The position numbers and the translations under genes were made by a program. The notes under the pieces are model-generated. The model saw only the letters and a program-made list of their open reading frames with translations. It did no database searches and was not told the DNA's origin. From contig NZ_SOAL01000004.1 in the NCBI RefSeq assembly GCF_004364775.1, positions 124,001 through 188,000 on the forward strand: a DNA stretch of 64,000 nucleotides. The letters run 5' to 3'. Shown here piece after piece: positions 46,363-60,033 of the stretch; the first letter of the stretch is position 1, and every line of letters starts with the position of its first letter. The stretch is from Comamonas sp. JUb58 (GTDB lineage: Bacteria; Pseudomonadota; Gammaproteobacteria; Burkholderiales; Burkholderiaceae_C).

Positions 46363-46875
46363 ATGCCTCCCCTCTCCCCTGGCGCAACGGCCTACACCAT
46401 CGAGACCATCTACCGCCAGGAGCATGGCTGGCTGAAGGCATGGCTGCAGCGCAAGCTGGGGACGTCCACCCATGCGGCCGACCTGGCACATGACACCTTT
46501 GTCCGGCTGCTGGCTTCGCCGGGTTCGGAGCCAATCCGTGAGCCACGTGCATTTTTGCGCACCGTCGCACATGGGCTGCTGGTCAACCACTGGCGCCGCC
46601 AGGACCTGGAACGCGCCTGGATCGAGACCCTGGCCCAGCTGCCACCGGCGCTGGCGCCCACGCCCGAAGAGCGGGCCATGGCACTGCAAACCTTGCAGCT
46701 GGTCGATGCCATGCTGCGCCGCATCAATCCCAAGGCCCGCGCGGCCTTTTTGCTGTCACAGCTCGACGGTCTGACCTATGCCGCCATCGCCACGCAGCTG
46801 AAAGTGTCGGAGCGCATGGTCAAACGCTATATGGCCCAGGCCATGTTCGAATGCCTGTTGCTGGAGCAGGCATGA
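46363..46875 (+). CDS. FecI-type ECF sigma factor
   Basis: A 170-residue extracytoplasmic-function sigma factor. Region 2 (IETIYRQEHGWLKAWLQRKLG, ADLAHDTFVRLL) and region 4 (DGLTYAAIATQLKVSERMVKRYMAQ) are clear. It lies in the standard sigma / anti-sigma / receptor order and overlaps the fecR start by ATGA. It is expected to transcribe the TonB receptor gene when the receptor signals a bound iron complex. Confidence 0.92.
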   Translation: MPPLSPGATAYTIETIYRQEHGWLKAWLQRKLGTSTHAADLAHDTFVRLLASPGSEPIREPRAFLRTVAHGLLVNHWRRQDLERAWIETLAQLPPALAPTPEERAMALQTLQLVDAMLRRINPKARAAFLLSQLDGLTYAAIATQLKVSERMVKRYMAQAMFECLLLEQA

Positions 46876-47843
46876 GCCCGCTCGCTGCCGGCCAACCCAG
46901 CCGGGAAGAGCTGCGCCAGGCGGCCGAATGGTTTTCGGTGCTGCAGTCCGGCAAACCCAGTGCGGCTGATATCCAGGACTGGCAGCAGTGGCTGGCCAGT
47001 GGCACGGGCGCCCAAGCTGCATGGCAAAGGGTGGAAGACCTGGCCGGCGGCCTCTCCCGCTTGTCCAGCCTGCCAGCGCGCCAGGCGCTGGAGCATGGCG
47101 CCCGCCTGGGGCGCAGCCGCCGCAGCGCGCTACGTGCCCTGGCCCTGGTTCCCCTCGGTGGCCTGGCGGCCTGGCTGCTGCAGCAGCAGTCCGAGCGGCG
47201 CGGCTGGTTGGCCGACTACCGGACCTCGGTCGGTGAACGCCGGGAGCTGCAGCTGGCCGACGGTGGCCGTCTCTGGCTCAATACCGGCAGCGCGGCCAAT
47301 GTGGACTACCAGCCAGGTCTGCGCCGCATCGCGCTGTATGCCGGCGAGCTGCTGCTGAGCACCGGCCGCGACCCGGTTCAGCCCGCGCGGCCGATGGTCG
47401 TCGATGTGGCCCCTGGCCGGCTGCAAGCCCTGGGCACCCGGTTTGGGGTGCGGTATGCGGACAGCGGCGCCGTACACCTGGCCGTGTTCGAAGGCCGGGT
47501 GGCTGCGCAGCCGCGTGCCGGCAGCAGCTTGGTGGTGGCGGCCGGTCAGCAGGCCCTCGTCTGGCCACACCGAGTAGAGGCCCTGGGCAGCGTTGCCGCA
47601 CAGGCCGATGGCTGGACCCGCGGCATGCTGGTGGCCGACAACATGCGCCTGGACGACTTTCTGGCTGAGCTGTCGCGCTACCGGCGCGGCTTGCTCAGTT
47701 GCGCAGCCGAGGTGGCCGACCTGCGCATCGTTGGCGCCTACCCCTTGGCCGATACCGACCAGGTCTTGCAGGCGCTGGCCTCTAGCCTCAACATCCGCGT
47801 GCGCCAGCCCTTCCCCTGGTGGGTGTCGGTCGAGGGCCTATAG
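46872..47843 (+). CDS. FecR-type sigma regulator
   Basis: A 323-residue inner-membrane anti-sigma/regulator. The cytoplasmic N-terminal DUF4880 part (QAAEWFSVLQSGKPSAADIQDWQQWL), one membrane segment (about residues 86-102, ALRALALVPLGGLAAWLL) and the periplasmic FecR domain (TSVGERRELQLADGGRLWLNTGSA) are seen in order. It relays the signal from the receptor's STN domain to the sigma factor. Start ATG 46872, overlapping the sigma gene. Confidence 0.92.
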   Translation: MSPLAAGQPSREELRQAAEWFSVLQSGKPSAADIQDWQQWLASGTGAQAAWQRVEDLAGGLSRLSSLPARQALEHGARLGRSRRSALRALALVPLGGLAAWLLQQQSERRGWLADYRTSVGERRELQLADGGRLWLNTGSAANVDYQPGLRRIALYAGELLLSTGRDPVQPARPMVVDVAPGRLQALGTRFGVRYADSGAVHLAVFEGRVAAQPRAGSSLVVAAGQQALVWPHRVEALGSVAAQADGWTRGMLVADNMRLDDFLAELSRYRRGLLSCAAEVADLRIVGAYPLADTDQVLQALASSLNIRVRQPFPWWVSVEGL

Positions 47844-47939: not shown

Positions 47940-50408
47940 ATGAACCGACTTACCGACCCGGCCAGCCTTGCCCAACGCCATCTCGTTCGCGCCCTGCGGG
48001 GGCGCCCCATTGCCATCGCCGTGGCCAGCTTGCTGGGAGCATCTGGCGTGTATGCGCAGACGCTGCACAGCTTCTCCATCCCACCAGGCCCCTTGGGCAC
48101 CGTGCTCAGCCAGACGGCGGCCACCGCCGGGGTGCTGTTGTCGGTCGATGCCAAGTTGACCCAGGGCATCCACAGCCCCGGCGTGCAAGGCCGGTTCAGC
48201 GCTGAAGAAGGGCTAGCCCGGGCGCTGGCAGGCAGCGGACTGGCAGCGGTGCCCAACGCGGGTGGCGGCTACACCTTGCGCGCCGCACCTACCGCCGCCC
48301 CCGCACCCGCCAACCCGGCAGCCACCGCCGACAATAGCACCACTTTGAGCACAGTGGTGGTCAGCGCTGCGGCCCAGGCGCCAGCCACCACCGAAGGCTC
48401 GGGCGCCTACAGCGCGCGTGCCGCCACCATCGGCAAGACAGCGCAAGCCCTCAAGGACATTCCCCAATCGGTCAGTGTGGTGACGCGCCAGCGCATGGAT
48501 GACCAGAACCTCAGCTCGGTCAGCGATGTTCTGGAAAACACCACCGGCATCATGATCAGCGAGGTTGCCGATGGTGGCCGCAACTACTATTCGCGCGGCT
48601 TCAAGATTGCCAATGTGCAGTACGACGGCGTGCCCTTGTCACGCGGCAATTACGGGGTGGGCAACAGCTTCACCGGCAATGCCGCCTACCTGGACCGGGT
48701 GGAGGTGTTCCGGGGTGCCCAGGGCTTGTTCGAAGGGGCGGGCCAGCCGTCAGGCTCCATCAACCTGGTGCGCAAGCGCCCCACCGCCGACAAGCAGCTC
48801 CTGGTCGAGGCCCGCGCCGGCTCCTGGAGCCACTATGGCGGCATGCTGGATGCCAGCGGTCCGCTCAACGACGAGGGCAGCCTGCGTGCCCGCGCCGTGC
48901 TCGATTACGACGACAAGGGCGGCTTCATCGACCACACCGATGAGAAGAACCTCAACGCCTACCTGGCGCTCGACTACGACCTGTCGGCCGACACCACGCT
49001 GGGCCTGGGCCTGGGGGTCTCGCGCCTGCGCTCCACGCCCTTCTTTGGCGGCTTGCCACGTTACAGCGATGGCCGCTCGCTGAACCTGAGCCGCTCCACC
49101 TTCCTGGGCGCGGACTGGAACCGCTGGGACCGCGACGAAACCCAGCTCTTTGCCGACCTGTCGCACCGCCTCAATGCGGACTGGCAGTTCAAGGTCGCGG
49201 CGGCCTATTCCCGCGAGACCAGCCTCACCACCGTGCGAGATTCCACCGGCGCCGTCGACCCCGTCAGCTTGACGGGCCCGGAAGGCGCGGCCTGGAACTA
49301 CGACAAGCTGTCCAAGAACGCCGGCATCGACATGCACCTCAATGGCCGCTTCGCGCTGCTGGGCATGCCCCAGCAACTGACCGTAGGCGCCAGCCTGTCG
49401 CGGCTGCGCAGCAATGACCGCATCGCCTATGCCTACAACCTGGGCGCGATCGATGTGTTCAACCCCAATCCCCACGTGCCCAAGCCCCAGGACTTCCCCG
49501 ATTCGCAGCGCCTGTCGCGCTATGAGCCGCATCTGCAAAAAGGCATCTACGCCCAGCTGCGCACGGAAATCGCACCCGCCTGGACCTTGGTCAGCGGCGG
49601 CCGTGTCAGCTGGTTTGAGAGTGTCTTCAGCACCCAGGCCGCCACCTGGGACAGCAAGAGCGAGCAGAAGAAGTCCGGCGAATTCACGCCCTTCCTCGGC
49701 CTGATCTACAAGCTGACGCCGCAATGGTCGGCCTACGCCAGCTATGCCGATGTCTTCATGCCCCAGACCACCACCGCCCAGGATGGCAGCACGCTCAAGC
49801 CCGTGATCGGCGCCAACTACGAGGCGGGTATCAAGGGCGAGTTGCTCGATGGCAGGCTCAATGCCTCGCTAGCCGTTTACCGCGTTGATGAAACCAACCG
49901 TGCCGTGGAAGACACCGCCGCCGGTCGGCTCTGCAACGGCAACTACTGCTACCGCGCCGCCGGCAAGGTGCGCAGCCAGGGCTTTGAGGCCGAACTGCAG
50001 GGCGCTGTCGCCCCCGGTTGGCAAGTGGCTGCCGGCTACACCTTCAACCGCAACAAGTACCTGTCCGATCCGGTCAACGAGGGCCTGACCTTCAACGAAG
50101 ACACGCCGCGCCACCTGCTGCGTCTGTGGAGCGACTACCGGTTTAAGGGTGACTGGAGCGGGCTGAGCCTGGGCGCTGGCGTCAGTGCGCAAAGCGCGAT
50201 GAGCAACAGCGTCTCAGGCGTGCGCCGCCCATCCTATGGAGTCTGGAACACGCGCATCGCCTACGACCTGAACCGCCAGTGGACCTTGGCGCTCAATGTG
50301 AACAACGTCTTTGACAAGGTCTACTACGAGTACGCCAGCTACATCGAGAACCGCAACAACTACGGTACGCCGCGCAACTTCCTGGTGACCCTGCGCGGCC
50401 GCTTCTGA
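47940..50408 (+). CDS. TonB-dependent siderophore receptor with signalling (STN) domain
   Basis: An 822-residue outer-membrane receptor. A signal peptide (ends near GVYAQ, residue 40) is followed by the STN domain (FSIPPGPLGTVLSQTAATAGVLLSV), an Ala/Pro linker, the plug (IPQSVSVVTRQRMDDQNLSSVSDVLENTTGI, YYSRGF) and a 22-strand barrel ending in the terminal aromatic RGRF. The pattern is that of ferric-siderophore receptors such as FpvA/FoxA. Upstream (47849-47860) is the palindrome TTTTCTAGAAAA. The siderophore cannot be told. Confidence 0.92.
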   Translation: MNRLTDPASLAQRHLVRALRGRPIAIAVASLLGASGVYAQTLHSFSIPPGPLGTVLSQTAATAGVLLSVDAKLTQGIHSPGVQGRFSAEEGLARALAGSGLAAVPNAGGGYTLRAAPTAAPAPANPAATADNSTTLSTVVVSAAAQAPATTEGSGAYSARAATIGKTAQALKDIPQSVSVVTRQRMDDQNLSSVSDVLENTTGIMISEVADGGRNYYSRGFKIANVQYDGVPLSRGNYGVGNSFTGNAAYLDRVEVFRGAQGLFEGAGQPSGSINLVRKRPTADKQLLVEARAGSWSHYGGMLDASGPLNDEGSLRARAVLDYDDKGGFIDHTDEKNLNAYLALDYDLSADTTLGLGLGVSRLRSTPFFGGLPRYSDGRSLNLSRSTFLGADWNRWDRDETQLFADLSHRLNADWQFKVAAAYSRETSLTTVRDSTGAVDPVSLTGPEGAAWNYDKLSKNAGIDMHLNGRFALLGMPQQLTVGASLSRLRSNDRIAYAYNLGAIDVFNPNPHVPKPQDFPDSQRLSRYEPHLQKGIYAQLRTEIAPAWTLVSGGRVSWFESVFSTQAATWDSKSEQKKSGEFTPFLGLIYKLTPQWSAYASYADVFMPQTTTAQDGSTLKPVIGANYEAGIKGELLDGRLNASLAVYRVDETNRAVEDTAAGRLCNGNYCYRAAGKVRSQGFEAELQGAVAPGWQVAAGYTFNRNKYLSDPVNEGLTFNEDTPRHLLRLWSDYRFKGDWSGLSLGAGVSAQSAMSNSVSGVRRPSYGVWNTRIAYDLNRQWTLALNVNNVFDKVYYEYASYIENRNNYGTPRNFLVTLRGRF

Positions 50409-51535: not shown

Positions 51536-52600
51536 ATGGAATTTGGCGTATTCATTCTGGCGCAGCAGCGCGGCTACCACCAGCGCTCTCAGGACGTTAT
51601 CAACAACTCCATCGAACAAACCGTGGTGGCAGAACAAGCGGGTTTCAATACCGCCTGGTATGCCGAACACCATTTCAATAATTATTCGCTGTCGCCATCG
51701 CCATTAATGACCGTGGCCCATGCAGCAGCTAAAACCAAAACCATTCGCCTGGGCACGGCGGTGTGTATTTTGCCACTCTACCACCCCGCTCGCTTCCTGG
51801 CCGAGGTCGGCTTTGTCGACACCGTGTCCAATGGGCGACTCGAACTGGGCGTGGGCTCGGGCTACCAGCAATTTGAATTTGAACGCTTTGGCGTCGAGAT
51901 CGCCAATTCCGGCGCGATCTTCAATGAGTTTCTCGACATTATTCCCAAGGCCCTGACCCAGAAAATATTCGAATACCAGGGCGAGTTCCTGAATATGCCA
52001 CCCAGCTCCATCGCCGTGCGCTGCGTGCAAGACCCGATGCCACCGCTCTGGGTCACCTCGGGCAACCCGGTCACCCTGGGCCGGGGCGTGCGCGAAGGCC
52101 ACAACCTGTTTGTCACCGCCCTGCTCAACGGCAACGAGGCCATTGCCGGCCTGCGCACCAAGCTGGAGAGCATTGCCACGGCCGAGGGCAAGGACCTGGA
52201 CAACGATGTGAAGTTCGGCTTTCTGCGCTGCGGCTATGCCTCGGACAATGCATCGGAAATCAACGCCTACCTGGATTGCGCACGCTTTCAGCGCCGCATC
52301 TCGGAGAGCCTCAAGTTCCGCCGCGCCCAGTCCGAAGACGGCTACATGGTCAAGGAAGTGCCGACCGAAACCGACCCGACCTTCGAGCAGCTGCGCAAGA
52401 ACCTGCCCGTCGGCTCGGTCAACGAAGTGATCGACAAGCTGCTCGAAGAGATCAGCATCCTCAAGCCCAAGCACATTGCGCTGCAAACCCAGCTGGGCGA
52501 CTTCGACCAGAAGACCATGCTCAAGCAGATCGAGCTCTGGGGCGACAAGATCATTCCCGCCGTGAAAAAAGAAGTGGGCCAGGCCGTAGCGCTGGCTTAA
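51536..52600 (+). CDS. Luciferase-like (LLM) flavin-dependent monooxygenase
   Basis: A 354-residue TIM-barrel monooxygenase using reduced FMN. The N-terminus MEFGVFILAQQRGYHQ, WYAEHHFNNYSLSPSP, and the flavin-site pattern IRLGTAVCILPLYHPARFLAE followed by LELGVGSGYQQFEF are typical. It needs a reductase partner, supplied by the next gene (12 bases downstream). AAGGAG stands before the ATG; CTAGAATG near 51499 may be the -10 region. Substrate unknown. Confidence 0.88.
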   Translation: MEFGVFILAQQRGYHQRSQDVINNSIEQTVVAEQAGFNTAWYAEHHFNNYSLSPSPLMTVAHAAAKTKTIRLGTAVCILPLYHPARFLAEVGFVDTVSNGRLELGVGSGYQQFEFERFGVEIANSGAIFNEFLDIIPKALTQKIFEYQGEFLNMPPSSIAVRCVQDPMPPLWVTSGNPVTLGRGVREGHNLFVTALLNGNEAIAGLRTKLESIATAEGKDLDNDVKFGFLRCGYASDNASEINAYLDCARFQRRISESLKFRRAQSEDGYMVKEVPTETDPTFEQLRKNLPVGSVNEVIDKLLEEISILKPKHIALQTQLGDFDQKTMLKQIELWGDKIIPAVKKEVGQAVALA

Positions 52601-52612
52601 GGAGACAGGGCC

Positions 52613-53407
52613 ATGCGCGTTCACCTCAGCAACTGCGGCTCCATCAGCCTGATGGATGCCCACAATTTTCGGGCACTCGATGTGCTGATCGAACCCCAGC
52701 CCGAGCCCCAGCTCGCGCAGGCCCTAACCCGCATCGGCACGCGTGACGGCGACAGCCATGTCTGGCTCTTCCCCCAGGTGCTACGCTTTCTGGCCTGCCA
52801 GGCCGCAGACAGCGAATGGGACGCAGGCTTTGCCGCCATGCTGGCCTATGCGCAGCAGCACGGCTGGGTCAACGACCAAGGACAGGTGCGCGCGCACATC
52901 ACCTTGGCCGCGGAAGACCAGGTCGTTTCGGTTGCCGACTTCAAGGCCGCGATGCGTGCCCTGCCGGCCGGCATCAGCGCCGTGACCACTGGCCAGGGCA
53001 AGGATGTCGCCGGCATGATCGTCTCCAGCCTCACCTCCATCTCGGCCGAGCCGCCGATGGTCGGCTTCTTTGCGCACAGCGCCTCGTCAATGGGCGATAC
53101 CTTGCTGCAAACCGGCAAGTTTGTGGCCAATGTGCTGGGTGAGGAACACAGCCAGATCATCGCCAGCTTTCTGAGCCAGCCGCAGGGCGAGGCCCGCTTC
53201 AAGGAAGGCCGCTGGCACAGCAGCGAACACCAGTTGCCCGTGCTGAGCGATGCGCTGGCCAGCATGGAATGCGACATCGTCTGCACCCACACCCTGGGCA
53301 CGCACAAGCTGGTGGTCGGCAAGATCCGCAAGTCCTCCTGCAACAGCGCGAGCCCGGTGGTCAACTTCAACGCCAGCACGCACAAGCTGGTGCCCTTGGC
53401 AGCCTGA
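52613..53407 (+). CDS. Flavin reductase (HpaC-like) with N-terminal extension
   Basis: A 264-residue protein. The C-terminal part (about 105-260) is a flavin reductase domain (FKAAMRALPAGISAVTTGQ; GMIVSSLTSISAEPPMVGFF; KFVANVLGEEHSQII), which would supply reduced flavin to the LLM enzyme. The first 95 residues (DVLIEPQPEPQLAQALTRIG; AAMLAYAQQHGWVNDQGQVR) are extra and not a usual part of HpaC-like reductases; I do not recognise the fold. It is likely co-transcribed with its neighbours. Confidence 0.82.
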   Translation: MRVHLSNCGSISLMDAHNFRALDVLIEPQPEPQLAQALTRIGTRDGDSHVWLFPQVLRFLACQAADSEWDAGFAAMLAYAQQHGWVNDQGQVRAHITLAAEDQVVSVADFKAAMRALPAGISAVTTGQGKDVAGMIVSSLTSISAEPPMVGFFAHSASSMGDTLLQTGKFVANVLGEEHSQIIASFLSQPQGEARFKEGRWHSSEHQLPVLSDALASMECDIVCTHTLGTHKLVVGKIRKSSCNSASPVVNFNASTHKLVPLAA

Positions 53408-53434
53408 TTGCAGACCAGAAAGGGGCTTCGAAAC

Positions 53435-54256
53435 ATGGACTGGTTGCAATTGGACCAACGCATCTGCGTCGTCACCGGCGGCGCCAAAGGCCTGGGCGCC
53501 GGCATCGTGCAAGCGCTGCTGGCCAGCGGCTGCCGCGTGGCGGTGCTGGACCACGACAGCGATGCGCTGGCACAGCTCGCAGCCACCCATCCCGATGCCC
53601 AGCGCCTGCTGCCCATCCGCGCCGATGTCTCATCGCCCACTGCGGTAGAGTCCGCCTTTCAAACTTTGCAACAGCACTGGGGCGCGGGCCCCAGCGTGCT
53701 GGTCAACAACGCCGCCATCACCAGCGCCGCGCCACTGGCCGAGCTGGACCCTGCCGTTTGGGAGCGCCAGCTGCAGATCAACCTGGGCGGCTACCTGCGC
53801 ATGGGCCAGGCCTTCTACCGCCATTCCGACGCCAGCCTGCCGCGCGCCATTGTCAACATCGCCTCGATCTCCGCTCAGAACGCCCAACCGCTGAGCGGCG
53901 GCTACAGCATGAGCAAGGCCGCCATTCGCATGCTCACCGCCCAGATGTGCCTGGAATGGGGCCCGGAAGGCATCCGCTGCAACACCGTCAGCCCCGGCCT
54001 GTTTGTGACCCCGCTGAGCGAGCGCTTCTACCGCAACCCCGACGACCGCGCCCGCCGCGAACAGGTCGTGCCGCTGCGCCGCATTGGCCAAATCGAAGAA
54101 CTCGCCGAGGCGGTGGTCTTCCTCGCCAGCCCCCGGGCCAGCTATGTCCATGGCGCGGATCTGGTGGTCGATGGCGGTTTCAGCCATTCGCTGATGACGC
54201 ATATTCCTCAGGCTTATGGGCAGGGGGAGTTGGGTGGCAGCCAGACGCCGTCTTGA
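53435..54256 (+). CDS. SDR family oxidoreductase
   Basis: A 273-residue classical SDR: TGGAKGLGAG near the N-terminus, NNAAITS, NIASISAQ with the catalytic Ser, and YSMSKAAIRM with Tyr and Lys. The C-terminus extends about 20 residues beyond the usual end. The ATG at 53435 has AGGGG about 10 bases upstream. It closes the LLM / flavin reductase / SDR cassette and probably oxidises or reduces its product. Confidence 0.86.
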   Translation: MDWLQLDQRICVVTGGAKGLGAGIVQALLASGCRVAVLDHDSDALAQLAATHPDAQRLLPIRADVSSPTAVESAFQTLQQHWGAGPSVLVNNAAITSAAPLAELDPAVWERQLQINLGGYLRMGQAFYRHSDASLPRAIVNIASISAQNAQPLSGGYSMSKAAIRMLTAQMCLEWGPEGIRCNTVSPGLFVTPLSERFYRNPDDRARREQVVPLRRIGQIEELAEAVVFLASPRASYVHGADLVVDGGFSHSLMTHIPQAYGQGELGGSQTPS

Positions 54257-54354: not shown

Positions 54355-55437
54355 TCAATACGCGTCAAAGATGCGTTGCAGCTCTTTCGGGTCTTGGGTT
54401 TTGGTGAGGGCTAGCATCAGTAGAATTCGCGCCTTCTGGGGCGAATGCATCATCGACGAAACAAAGCCCGCCTTGCTGAACTCCCCAGTGGGAGTCACGA
54501 TACCGGTGGGCACGCGAGAGCCTACAACGACAGCGACGCCTTTCTTTTGCGCCGCCACCAAGCTCTCCATGATGGCAACCGGCATGTTGGCGTGGCCCGT
54601 GCCTGCATTGACAATGCCCCGCGCGCCAGCAGCCACGGCTGCATCCACCAGCACCCCGTCCGATCCCAGGGTCGTGTAGTTGATATCCACCCGAGGCAGA
54701 CTGTCGATCTGCCGGATATCAAACTCGCTGTTGGACGTATGCCTCTTGGCCGGGCTGGAGATAAAGAATGGCTGCGAATTTTGCATATAGCCCAGTTCGC
54801 CACCATCGGGACTCTTGAATGTGCCTGTATTGGTGGTGTTGGTCTTCATCACGCCAAACGCGCTGCTGATTCTGTCGTTCATGCTGACCAGAACCCCTTT
54901 GCTCTGTGCCGCTGGGCTAGCTGCCAAAGCGACTGCATTGACCAGGTTCAGAGGGCCGTCAGCACTGATGCCGGTACTGGGCCGCATCGATCCCACCAAG
55001 ACCACGGGCTTGTTAGTCTTCAACACCAGGTTCAAAAAGTAGGCGGTCTCTTCCAGCGTGTCCGTGCCATGGGTGATGACCACGCCGTCCACACCATCCG
55101 ACGCCAATAGCTCGTGGGTGCGCTTGGCCAGTGTGAGCCAGTTGGCCATGCTGATCTTGGAGCTTCCCACGTTGAAAATCTGCTCGCCAGAGACATTGGC
55201 AAACTTCTCAATTTCTGGAACCGCAGACACCAGTGATTGGATACCCACCTGCTTCATGCCTGCACCGGGACCGTAGTCTGTCAATGCCAAGGTATCGGCA
55301 CCTCGGCTGGCGATCGTACCGCCGGTCGCGAGGATCGCGACATTGGCTTTGGCAGCCTGCTGGGCAAGTGCAGGGGCAGCAGCCAGGGCGAATGCTGCGG
55401 CACTCAATACGCTTGTTGTGAATGTCTTGAGGTTCAT
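54355..55437 (-). CDS. Type II (periplasmic) L-asparaginase
   Basis: A 360-residue exported amidohydrolase. A signal peptide (residues 1-25, ending PALAQ) is followed by ILATGGTIAS with the nucleophile Thr at about residue 41, and VITHGTDTLEETAYFL with the second Thr and Asp of the catalytic site. The start ATG 55437 gives a clean signal; an upstream ATG at 55473 would add 12 residues, and neither has a strong ribosome binding site. It leads or ends a run of D-amino-acid/amide genes on the minus strand. It could act on asparagine or glutamine. Confidence 0.9.
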   Translation of the reverse strand: MNLKTFTTSVLSAAAFALAAAPALAQQAAKANVAILATGGTIASRGADTLALTDYGPGAGMKQVGIQSLVSAVPEIEKFANVSGEQIFNVGSSKISMANWLTLAKRTHELLASDGVDGVVITHGTDTLEETAYFLNLVLKTNKPVVLVGSMRPSTGISADGPLNLVNAVALAASPAAQSKGVLVSMNDRISSAFGVMKTNTTNTGTFKSPDGGELGYMQNSQPFFISSPAKRHTSNSEFDIRQIDSLPRVDINYTTLGSDGVLVDAAVAAGARGIVNAGTGHANMPVAIMESLVAAQKKGVAVVVGSRVPTGIVTPTGEFSKAGFVSSMMHSPQKARILLMLALTKTQDPKELQRIFDAY

Positions 55438-55535
55438 AGTGAGAGTTGTGTGCGAGCGTTGAAGAAAAGGCATGGGCGCAGCCGTGCCTGGCGCAGGCCG
55501 TCAGGCCATGCGCCGGCAATAACGGCGATATGAGG

Positions 55536-56468
55536 CTAGGGCAGCGGATCGCCCGCGCCCACCCGGTCCACAATCAAGCGGTAGTGCTCAGGCCTGCGGT
55601 GCTTGGCGAAGTTGAAGACATGCTGGCGGAAATGCTCACCCAGCGTGAGGTCGGCGCTGACGCAGATGACCTCGTCCTCTTCGGTCAGCGTACGCGCCAC
55701 GATCTCACCGGTGGGAGCAACGATCACAGAGCTGCCAATCATGTGGTGTCCATCTTCCGAGCCGCATTTGGCGGCGGCCGCCACCCAAATTCCATTCTGG
55801 TAGGCATTGGCCTGCAATGAAACCAAATGGGTAGTTGTGCGCAAATGCACCGGCTCATTCCAATGGATATTGAGCGACGGCGTGTTGTAGCCCAGCATGA
55901 CCACCTCTGCACTTTGCAAAGCCATCACGCGGTAGGTCTCCGGCCAGCGGCGGTCATTGCACAGGCACATGCCGTACTTGACTGCATCGGACTCGAACAC
56001 CCTGAACCCCAGGTCGCCAACATCGAAGTACTTTTTCTCCAGATGCTGGAATGGCGCCTCCGGCTTGTGCTCCACATGGCCAGGCAAATGGATCTTGCGG
56101 TACTTGCCGGCAATGTCGCCCCTCTGGTTGACCAGCACTGCTGTGTTATAGGGTCGCCCATCTTCCGCTAGCTCGGCATAGCCCAGATAAAAGCCCACGC
56201 CCAACTCCCGCGCTGCATCGAACAGGGGCTGAACATCGGCATTGGGCATCTGCGCTTCGAAGAATCTCGCTTGTGCTTCAGCTTCCTCCATCCAGTAGCG
56301 TGGGAAGAAGGTCGTCAGTGCCAGTTCAGGAAATACCACCATCTCAGCGCCTCTTGCCTTGGCTTCGCGCAGCATGGCTACCAAGCGGCGGACCACAGCG
56401 CCCCGGCTGTCCGATAGATGAACCGGCCCCATCTGGGCCACGGCCAAACCTAGTTTTCGTGTTGTCAT
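55536..56468 (-). CDS. N-carbamoyl-D-amino-acid hydrolase
   Basis: A 310-residue nitrilase-superfamily amidase. It reads like the well-known Agrobacterium enzyme: VVFPELALTTFFPRYW with the catalytic Glu (about 48), GKYRKIHLPGH with the Lys (about 125) and CLCNDRRWPETYRVM with the Cys (about 170). It would cleave N-carbamoyl-D-amino acids, the second step of hydantoin breakdown, to free D-amino acids. The start ATG 56468 overlaps the stop of the D-aminoacylase gene (ATGA) and has AAGGA; ATG 56477 is less likely. Confidence 0.9.
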   Translation of the reverse strand: MTTRKLGLAVAQMGPVHLSDSRGAVVRRLVAMLREAKARGAEMVVFPELALTTFFPRYWMEEAEAQARFFEAQMPNADVQPLFDAARELGVGFYLGYAELAEDGRPYNTAVLVNQRGDIAGKYRKIHLPGHVEHKPEAPFQHLEKKYFDVGDLGFRVFESDAVKYGMCLCNDRRWPETYRVMALQSAEVVMLGYNTPSLNIHWNEPVHLRTTTHLVSLQANAYQNGIWVAAAAKCGSEDGHHMIGSSVIVAPTGEIVARTLTEEDEVICVSADLTLGEHFRQHVFNFAKHRRPEHYRLIVDRVGAGDPLP

Positions 56469-57922
56469 TTTTCGCATTCCTTGTCTGCATATTGCTGGGG
56501 CGCTGGTCGGCGCAGCACTTGCCCTGGACGCGCTCCGGTGGGCTGATGGCCATCCCAGACCTGCCGCCCATTGACCCAGACTTGCTCGATGCCCTCGCTG
56601 GCCTGCACAGGCTCTTCGAACGTGGCCTTGTCCGATACCCGCTGGGGATCAAACACCACCAGATCGGCAAACCAGCCCGGCGTCAAGCGGCCGCGTTGGT
56701 CCAATCCATACTGCTCCGCAGCCAGGCCAGTCATCCGGTGGATGCCCTCTTCCAGCGACAGCAATCCACATTCACGCACCATGCGCCGCAGCACCCGCGT
56801 GAAGGTGCCCCACTGGCGTGGATGGGGGTGGGGATCAAAGGGCAGGCCATCAGAACCCACCATGGTCAGAGGGAAGCTGAAGATGCGGTCCACATCGCCC
56901 TGGTCCATCAAGAAGTAGATGGCACCCGCCGGTGACAGCCGCGCCAGCAGCGCTTCATCGTCCAAACCCCATTCCTTTTGCAGGTCGGCGAAATCCCGAC
57001 CTTTGGCCTCGGGGCAGGCGCTCGACCAGGTGATCATGGTGCGGCTTGCCAGGCGCACGCGGTCGAGCCGCAGCATGGTGGACGTGGCCGGGTAAGGGTG
57101 GCAGTCCACACACACCGGTTGCATGCGGCTGGCCTCCTCGATCAGCGCCAGCGTCTCCGCCGAACGACCGTGGTTGCGCTCTCCCGCCAGTTTGTGGTGC
57201 GAGAAAACCACCCGGCAGTCTGCGTCGCGCCCCACGGCCAGCGCCTCTTGCATGGCAGGGACAATCGCATCCGCCTCATCGCGCAGATGGGTGGCATACA
57301 CGGCCTGGCGGCCTCGCAAAGGCTGGCAGACTTGCAGCAGTTCCTGTGTGGACGCATGGCGTGCAGGCGGGTAAAAAGTACCGGTCGAGATGCCAAAGGC
57401 TCCGTCGTCCAACGCTTCGGTCAGCAAATCCCGCATCTGCGCACACTCTTCATCGCTGGCTTCACGCTGGTGGTCAGCCATCACCTTGACGCGCAAGGTC
57501 GTATGGCCCACCAGCGGAATCACGTTGACTGCCGCTGGCTTCGCCTGCAAGGCTTGCAACCAGTCGCCAAAGCGCTCAAAGCGAAACAGCTCGGGAGGCC
57601 CCAGCAGGTCCAGCGGCTGCGGCACGCTTTGTTGCACCAGCGGCGCCAGACTGATGCCGCAGTTGCCGGTGACCACCGTGGTAATCCCTTGAGAGACTTT
57701 GGGCACCATGTCGCGATGCACCAGCAGGTAGCCGTCATCGTGGGTGTGCGAGTCGATGAAGCCCGGTGCAATGGCCAGACCCTGGAGGTCAATGACGGTA
57801 TCACCGGCTTGGGGCAGCACATCGCCTATCTGGGCAATGCGCTCGCCTTCCACCGCCACATCAGCACTGAACGCGCCTTGGCCAGTACCATCGATGACCA
57901 TTGCATTCTTGAATATCAGCAC
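56465..57922 (-). CDS. D-aminoacylase (N-acyl-D-amino-acid deacylase)
   Basis: A 485-residue amidohydrolase-superfamily zinc enzyme. Metal-site landmarks: FIDSHTHDDG (His 59 and 61), VVTGNCGIS (Cys 88), YATHLRDE and FSHHKLAGERNHG (two His), and MVGSDGLP (Asp). It frees D-amino acids from N-acyl-D-amino acids. The start is GTG at 57922 with AGGAAAGAG upstream. It is translationally coupled to the carbamoylase gene, which suggests a shared D-amino-acid substrate pool. Confidence 0.9.
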   Translation of the reverse strand: MLIFKNAMVIDGTGQGAFSADVAVEGERIAQIGDVLPQAGDTVIDLQGLAIAPGFIDSHTHDDGYLLVHRDMVPKVSQGITTVVTGNCGISLAPLVQQSVPQPLDLLGPPELFRFERFGDWLQALQAKPAAVNVIPLVGHTTLRVKVMADHQREASDEECAQMRDLLTEALDDGAFGISTGTFYPPARHASTQELLQVCQPLRGRQAVYATHLRDEADAIVPAMQEALAVGRDADCRVVFSHHKLAGERNHGRSAETLALIEEASRMQPVCVDCHPYPATSTMLRLDRVRLASRTMITWSSACPEAKGRDFADLQKEWGLDDEALLARLSPAGAIYFLMDQGDVDRIFSFPLTMVGSDGLPFDPHPHPRQWGTFTRVLRRMVRECGLLSLEEGIHRMTGLAAEQYGLDQRGRLTPGWFADLVVFDPQRVSDKATFEEPVQASEGIEQVWVNGRQVWDGHQPTGARPGQVLRRPAPQQYADKECEK

Positions 57923-57947: not shown

Positions 57948-58933
57948 TCAGTTCAGCTTTTCGATCTTGCTGGACTGGATGATCTCGGTCCATTTCTTGG
58001 TCTCGCGGGCGATCAATTGCTTGAAATCCTCCGGCGTGCCGCCTACGGGCTGGGCACCCAGGCCAAGGAGGCTTTCCCGCACGTTGGGGGTCTTCAGCAC
58101 CTTGTCCAGATCGGCTGCCAGTGTCTTGGCTTGATCGGGCGTCATCTTGCGGTTGCCCACCACCCCCCCCCCCAGGAAACGATCTCGTAGCCCTTCACAC
58201 CCGCCTCGTCCATGGTCGGCACATTCGGCAGCTGATCGATACGCTTGCCCAGTTGGGTCACGGCCAATGCACGCACCTTGCCGGACTTGATAAGCGGCAC
58301 GGCTTCAGAGCTGTTGATGAACATATAGTCCAAGCGCCCGCCCATCAGATCCTGCAAAGCAGCTGGCCCGCCTTGGTAGGGAACAAAAACGGTGTCCAGC
58401 TTTTCCAGGTGGTTGAGCAGCTCCCCACTCATGTGGCCGGTGGTGCCAACGCCTGAAGCGCCATAGGAGAGCTTGCCGGGATTCTTGCGCGCTTCGGCCA
58501 GCAAATCCTTGACGGATTGCACGCTGGATGCGGCAGGAACGATCAGCACGTTGTAGAGGTTGAAGAGGTGCGACACCGGCACCAGGTCCTTGTCCACGTC
58601 ATAAGGCAGGGTAGAAAACAGCGCGCGATTGACCGCCAGGGTGTTGATGTTTCCATAGCCCACGGTGAGCTCGTTACCCCGGATCACCTGCACCATGCCG
58701 ATATTGCCCGCCGCGCCGGGCTTGTTTTCTACAATCACTGGACGGTGGGCGTTTTGCGCCCATTGGTTGGTGATGATGCGGCTCAGCACGTCAGGGGAGC
58801 CACCGGCGGCCGACGGCACCACAAAGTTAATGGCTTGGCTGGCGTTGCCCTGTGCAGCAGCCGGAACCGCTTGGGCAGCAAGCAGTGCAAGAGGCAACAG
58901 GAGGGCAAAACGGTTCAGAAGGCGGCGGTTCAT
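57948..58933 (-). pseudogene. Bug-type periplasmic receptor 4, frameshifted at a G11 run
   Basis: A signal peptide and the first 250 residues (NFVVPSAAGGSPDVLSRIITNQ, VENKPGAAGNIGMVQ) are open from ATG 58933, but at a run of eleven C (58163-58173; G on the coding strand) the frame ends in WWATAR and a stop at 58142. The rest of the receptor (VVGNRKMTPDQAKTLAADL to SSKIEKLN, ending 57948) is open in another frame. Nine or twelve G would restore a single frame of about 328 residues. It could be a sequencing error, a true pseudogene or a phase-variable switch. It stands at the head of the D-amino-acid genes, divergent from a LysR gene. Confidence 0.85.
58163..58173 (-). repeat. Homopolymer of 11 G on the coding strand
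   Basis: Eleven C in a row on the plus strand inside the receptor gene, at the exact point where the frame is lost. Such tracts are prone to length change by slippage and to sequencing miscounts. Confidence 0.95.
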
Positions 58934-59055: not shown

Positions 59056-60033
59056 ATGCCAAGCCACTCACCGGACACCAGCCCAGCCGCCATTCGCCCC
59101 CGCGCACTGAACATGCGCCAGCTGGAGGTCTTCCACGCCATCATGACCACGGGCAGCATCAGCGGCGCAGCCTTGGCCTTGCATGTATCGCAGCCGGCGC
59201 TGAGCCGCGCGCTGGCGCACTGCGAAGCCCGCCTGGGCTATCCCTTGTTTGAGCGACTGGGAAGGAGACTGCAGCCCACGCCCGAAGCCCAGCGACTGCA
59301 TGAAGAAGCACGTGATCTGTACCGAGGACTGGACCGGTTCAACAGCCTGGCCCAGCGCATCGGCCATGCTGGCGTGGACACCTTGCACCTGGCCTGCAGT
59401 GCCACCTTTGCCAACACCTTGATACCGCAGGCGCTGCAGCAGCTGATGCGTTACAGCCCACAGCTGCGCGTGGACTTTCGCACCGCCACCTATGACGAAC
59501 TGCCGGAGTACCTGCTGTCTGCGCAAGCCGATGTCGGCGTCTCTTTGGTGGAATCGAACCACCCGGGCTTGAAATCACGCTTGCTGGGCCGCCAGCAGCT
59601 GCTATGCGTGCTGCCCCCGCAGCACCCGCTGGCAAACCGGCCTCTCATTGATCCGCTGGAGCTGTGCGACACCGCATGGATCGGCTACCCACCAGACACC
59701 CCGTTGGGACGCCTTTGCAGCGCAGCGCTAGGGATTGATGCCAGCTCCGCCAGCATCCAGGTGCGCTCGCCAGCCATTGCCCTCAGCTGTGTGCAGACAG
59801 GCTTGGGGGCCGCGATTGTCGATGCCTCATGCATCCCCCATCTCCCCCGTGGGGACATCGTCGTCAGGCCATTGACGAGCGATGTGTATTCCGACATCTG
59901 GACCATCACCTCGGCCCGGCAGCCCTGCTCGGCAGCGGGCCAGCAGTTCATCGATGCACTGCATGTGGTGCTGAAACAGCTGAATGTTTCCCAAGCTCAG
60001 CCGCCCAGAACCCAAAGCGCCGGCAACGCTTGA
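59056..60033 (+). CDS. LysR-type transcriptional regulator
   Basis: A 325-residue LysR protein. The winged helix (RQLEVFHAIMTTGSISGAALALHVSQPALSRALAHCE) sits at about residues 20-60 after a short N-terminal extension. The effector domain follows. It is divergent from the frameshifted receptor gene across 122 bases and probably controls that receptor and the D-aminoacylase, carbamoylase and asparaginase genes behind it. The effector may be a D-amino-acid derivative (inference). Confidence 0.92.
   Translation: MPSHSPDTSPAAIRPRALNMRQLEVFHAIMTTGSISGAALALHVSQPALSRALAHCEARLGYPLFERLGRRLQPTPEAQRLHEEARDLYRGLDRFNSLAQRIGHAGVDTLHLACSATFANTLIPQALQQLMRYSPQLRVDFRTATYDELPEYLLSAQADVGVSLVESNHPGLKSRLLGRQQLLCVLPPQHPLANRPLIDPLELCDTAWIGYPPDTPLGRLCSAALGIDASSASIQVRSPAIALSCVQTGLGAAIVDASCIPHLPRGDIVVRPLTSDVYSDIWTITSARQPCSAAGQQFIDALHVVLKQLNVSQAQPPRTQSAGNA

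Follow-up and report, generated by a model that had tools for sequence, protein, structure and literature searches.

A run of eleven G that breaks the frame of a TctC/Bug receptor gene in Comamonas sp. JUb58: most likely recent slippage in a homopolymer that arose by chance

In the genome of Comamonas sp. JUb58, a gene for a TctC/Bug periplasmic receptor loses its reading frame at a run of eleven identical bases, read as C11 on the forward strand and as G11 on the coding, reverse strand (58163..58173). Among the explanations weighed here, the most likely, which we favour with modest confidence, is that of a lineage-specific chance homopolymer that slipped recently in an otherwise conserved receptor gene; a miscounted run comes second. 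The tract is the longest homopolymer of the window (the whole 64-kb stretch of DNA analysed), the runners-up being G or C runs of seven and, for any base, a T8. The genome under study is a draft of 60 contigs, and eleven is the length of the tract as deposited.

The deposited receptor ORF (58142..58933, reverse strand) opens with an ATG at 58933 and is closed after 263 amino acids by a premature TGA at 58144-58142. It meets the tract at codon 254, the tract being two G's longer than the register of the orthologues requires. The rest of the gene (57948..58163, reverse strand) lies in another frame as 71 codons and a stop, and is conserved and under purifying selection. The first piece scores 147 bits with the Pfam family TctC (PF03401), whose cut-off is 27, and covers about positions 3-203 or 3-206 of the 274 of the profile, so that the full-length domain is not reached; the second piece aligns with positions 214-271 of the same profile at 22.1 bits, a score that taken alone is below the family cut-off. 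By comparison, the intact orthologue of the relative G013 reaches 185 bits. In NCBIfam, no match was obtained for either piece, nor for the G013 orthologue. Both pieces are one TctC/Bug periplasmic receptor gene split over two frames. A preliminary description of this DNA had located the loss of frame at the G11 and the completion of the protein in another frame, as is borne out by the stop after 263 amino acids and the 71 codons found elsewhere; its modulo-3 arithmetic, by which the gene would be whole with nine or twelve G, agrees with the alignment to four orthologues, where exactly two G's are extra. As far as the sequence tells, the frame depends on tract length: the deposited length gives 263 amino acids, whereas the orthologous register gives 327 in G013.

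Clear orthologues exist in the genus in G013, G017, G031 and G007, with DNA identities over the whole gene of 89%, 88%, 88% and 80%, respectively. These are the four of the 52 other genomes of the genus in which an orthologue was found at E<=1e-60, the best eight candidates being scored per genome, and the receptor gene is accessory in the genus. A sample of the family (399 genomes including that under study, best two candidates scored per genome) added three more distant relatives, at 68%. Among the matches listed in a wider scan of contigs, there was no close orthologue; one homologue had 67% identity and 79 had 35-44%. The genome collection holds one genome per species.

All four orthologues are in frame across the site, where they read TGG GGN GGN GTG GTG GGC, and they break the G run inside the glycine codons, the longest run (in G013) being of seven. 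Compared with them, the studied genome has two G's more and no interrupting base. In the 83 homologues drawn from the family scan and from the matches listed in the wider contig scan, the longest G run at the site is of two in 41, of three in 36, of four in five and of five in one. Retention of the tract at the same site thereby amounts to none of the four orthologues and none of the 83 homologues; among everything compared, the tract is private to the studied genome.

Apart from the tract, the gene looks sound. Upstream of it, dN/dS between the studied copy and the four orthologues ranged from 0.050 to 0.069, compared with 0.053-0.077 among the orthologues; downstream of it, the corresponding values were 0.062-0.091 and 0.030-0.090. 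No second stop or indel was found in the 972 compared bases of coding sequence (253 + 71 codons). The part behind the frameshift has not decayed, and the event is therefore either recent or arose only in sequencing.

The quality of the assembly was assessed by a frameshift scan of 280 kb of the same contig against roughly matching 280 kb of the single-contig genomes G013 and G017. In its filtered form, coding-like third-position GC was required of both query and match, with a match threshold of 65%. With the queries of G013, 158 of 199 ORFs were matched (58,781 amino acids aligned); among them, the receptor gene alone had a frameshift between two conserved halves. With those of G017, 165 of 187 ORFs were matched and two calls resulted, namely the receptor and query ORF 15; the latter was discarded as a spurious ORF, with an inverted repeat at the junction (by eye), that also breaks in G013. 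Reverse tests gave one frameshift-like call in each of G013 and G017 themselves, that of G013 being seen with the queries of the studied genome and not called with those of G017. The background is about one frameshift-like call per 280 kb, and nothing points to an assembly prone to indels in general. The idea of a generally error-prone assembly was dropped, as the filtered scan does not support it.

An unfiltered first scan had returned many more pairs: 16 frameshift-like pairs for G013 against the studied genome and six for G017, within a range of 6-17 over all genome pairs. This excess arose from long shadow ORFs, which in GC-rich DNA had taken the place of genes. When rechecked, the scan held 21 distinct joins in the studied genome, two of which are the receptor gene; a 22nd, of G017 query 72, is at the same place as that of G013 query 73, and the two were counted once. 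For 16 of the 19 other joins, a coding-like frame extends over most of the joined stretch, so that either a shadow ORF or a spurious extension accounts for the join. The three joins without such a frame belong to the G013 queries 65 (second join), 101 and 161, and query 101 breaks in G017 too. Two of the intact query ORFs of highest identity, one per relative, had no Pfam match. Open frames with family matches span two further runs in this genome, namely the C8 of rho and the C9 of a glycosyltransferase gene, both shorter than 11. The receptor frameshift coincides with the longest G/C run that the 280-kb stretch contains.

Genome-wide, seven G/C runs of at least nine bases were counted (two of 11 and five of nine), where 2-11 were expected, depending on Markov order. 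For runs of at least 11, the expectation per genome went from 0.04 under order 5 to 0.45 under order 2, and two were observed; these expectations use extension probabilities taken from 280 kb. Runs of at least nine are thus not in clear excess, whereas runs of 11 are, the excess being weak with order 2 and strong with order 5. Within the 280-kb stretch, there are three runs of at least nine here, none in G013 and one in G017. A G11 occurs somewhere in 27 of the 53 genomes searched, including G031 and G007, with none in G013 or G017. The mutS gene is intact, so that no loss of mutS would have helped slippage.

The second 11-base G/C run (C5:132639-132649) is found between a DeoR-type regulator gene (glpR-like, by eye) and a glycerol kinase gene (by eye). 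At that site, the four relatives have no G/C run longer than seven in the compared stretch; the alignment is informative for G013 and G017, and in G013 the spacing is identical but the bases are mixed, which suggests that this run came about by substitution and not by insertion. A run of nine (C6:1133-1141) precedes the probable start of a small glyoxalase/VOC-like gene (by eye) by about a dozen bases and lies near the ribosome-binding site, and a C9 (C4:237851-237859) is just ahead of the stop of a long ORF with a lipoprotein-like start.

The receptor gene is the first of four genes on the same strand. It is followed by an amidohydrolase gene (Amidohydro_3; 56465..57922, reverse strand), whose product we take to be D-aminoacylase-like and whose GTG start is 25 nt past the normal stop of the receptor, then by genes for a carbon-nitrogen hydrolase of the nitrilase superfamily (55536..56477, reverse strand) and a type II asparaginase (54355..55473, reverse strand). 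A LysR-family gene (59056..60033, forward strand), divergent from the receptor, is from its position the probable regulator of the cluster, and the same positional reasoning suggests that the receptor probably serves the uptake of an amide or a modified amino acid. After the early stop, the untranslated gap to the next start is 219 bases, compared with 25 normally. Polarity on the amidohydrolase, hydrolase and asparaginase genes is therefore possible, and the output of these downstream genes could be reduced. Beside the cluster, on the opposite strand (window positions 51536-54256), genes for a luciferase-like monooxygenase, a flavin-reductase-like protein and a short-chain dehydrogenase stand in a row.

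The receptor family is large, with 69 PF03401 matches in the studied genome (one of them marginal), 75 in G013 and 80 in G017. The match at C20:44093-44920 has an internal TGA. In G017, a match at 49159-49983 has a TAG and a TAA inside, and a G013 match at 46663-47472 is open.

The preliminary description had offered three readings of the broken frame, namely phase variation, a pseudogene and a miscount, and they have fared differently. A miscount, which still stands beside a recent slip, would mean that the G run has in reality an in-frame length, that G's were added or lost in base calling or assembly, and that the gene is whole in the cell. It is consistent with a break placed exactly in the longest G/C run of 280 kb, where miscounts are likeliest, with the healthy state of the rest of the gene and with the draft nature of the assembly in 60 contigs. 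It is made less likely, by arguments that are mild, by the lack of any other credible frameshift among the 158 matched G013 genes and by the open frames around the C8 of rho and the C9 of the glycosyltransferase gene, controls that are shorter than 11; we regard a miscount as a possible, though on balance unlikely, explanation. A pseudogene produced by old decay fared worse. An established pseudogene, in which the loss of the receptor is old and the frameshift is just one step among several in its decay, would account for the broken frame, would suit an accessory gene with many paralogues, and would have company in the second TctC match of the genome that carries an internal stop (C20:44093-44920). 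However, the 972 coding bases hold no second lesion, and dN/dS is 0.05-0.09 in both halves, as low as between intact orthologues. An old pseudogene was accordingly rejected on the constraint on both halves together with the absence of other lesions, and a long-established loss in any form seems very improbable to us.

For selected phase variation, i.e. a contingency switch that toggles the receptor and perhaps, by polarity, the downstream operon, it is the run alone that speaks. Its length and the loss of frame resemble the G11 of bapC and the G9 of tcfA in Bordetella, where a transport/binding gene, smoM, has a coding C9 as well (PMC1891110, in the portion of that paper on which we draw). The genome has two runs of 11 for 0.04-0.45 expected, and the 280-kb stretch has its three runs of at least nine for none in G013 and one in G017. 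On the other side, none of the four orthologues and none of the 83 homologues has the tract at this site, and the seven runs of at least nine fall within the 2-11 expected. The periplasmic receptor of a catabolic cluster is also an atypical surface target, which counts against such a switch. Taken together, this makes selected phase variation quite improbable, if less so than a long-established pseudogene. The more specific idea of a contingency switch of recent origin in the leading gene of a cluster for amide/amino-acid catabolism, where slippage would toggle the receptor and, via polarity over the 219-base gap, the amidohydrolase, hydrolase and asparaginase together, with clonal heterogeneity in nutrient use as the outcome, we hold to be slightly less probable still than selected phase variation in general. 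Recoding, by which slippage of the polymerase or the ribosome on the G run would yield some full-length receptor despite the frameshift, is the least probable of all and close to negligible. Long homopolymers are slippery in principle, and the downstream codons are conserved, though the same is expected after a very recent slip; the orthologues, however, have a single frame without such a long run, so that recoding is not conserved.

A recent slip on a chance run thus remains the reading that we prefer, and it may be pictured as follows. The run would have arisen by chance in the G-rich codon stretch for W-G-G-V-V-G of the TctC/Bug gene, where synonymous third-position changes would have joined neighbouring G's until the run was of a length at which replication may slip. 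Slippage by a number of bases that is not a multiple of three would then have cut the receptor at 263 amino acids, about 20% short, with the end of the TctC domain lost. Such a loss is plausibly cheap, given the dozens of paralogues in the genome and the accessory status of the gene in the genus. The run likely slips back and forth in culture, and the cell line may accordingly be a mixture; the run would then act as a hotspot of mutation, not as a switch shaped by evolution. What we infer of the direction and timing of the slip comes from relatives of 80-89% DNA identity only.

If this reading holds, the receptor gene neatly illustrates how a series of G-rich codons may, through base changes, turn into an unstable run by which a gene is silenced immediately and perhaps in a reversible way. 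For annotation, the lesson is that one draft genome should not yield, in such a case, the label ‘dead pseudogene’ or ‘phase-variable gene’. Should the switch be real, phase variation would reach beyond surface antigens to include metabolic uptake.

By sequence, the receptor belongs to the same family as two TctC/Bug proteins of solved structure, Bug27 (2qpq) and a terephthalate-binding protein (8hka), to which the 327-residue orthologue of G013 aligns over residues 31-316 and 33-323, respectively; compared with these, the studied copy ends at 263 amino acids, inside the family domain. Among the literature matches listed, there was no report joining TctC or the tripartite tricarboxylate transporters with phase variation or homopolymer frameshifts. 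The nearest parallels concern other proteins, and the smoM product belongs to a different receptor family, of TRAP type. In Bordetella pertussis, smoM (BP1487) has a coding C9 and is filed under transport/binding proteins, two sister species having C5GC3 instead (PMC1891110, Table 1). It is similar to our case as a lineage-specific coding G/C run that is interrupted in the sisters, and the same kind of run fusion would apply to both (PMC1891110). As regards instability, the reference genome of B. pertussis has its bapC G11 out of frame, a mixture of several lengths was present in all 93 single colonies, and a Bordetella tract upstream of BP3651 was seemingly unstable only beyond eight bases (PMC1891110, as excerpted). 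By analogy with bapC (PMC1891110), the G11 tract described here is probably unstable; an unstable tract in a receptor gene would thus have its parallels and would need no selected switch. Poly(A) tracts are dealt with in PMC2831843. In Propionibacterium acnes, G/C tracts vary both in and between genes, and sequencing error was weighed against real variation much as here; that study drew on 90 genomes with six Sanger-validated, whereas ours concerns a single genome (PMC4746626, in excerpt). The closest likeness in form is to bapC G11 and tcfA G9, as poly-G tracts within coding sequence, the bapC G11 being out of frame with lengths mixed within a colony; the Bordetella tracts, however, lie in cell-envelope genes and their lengths were typed in 90 strains, whereas here the tract belongs to a single genome whose relatives do not have it (PMC1891110, in the part cited).
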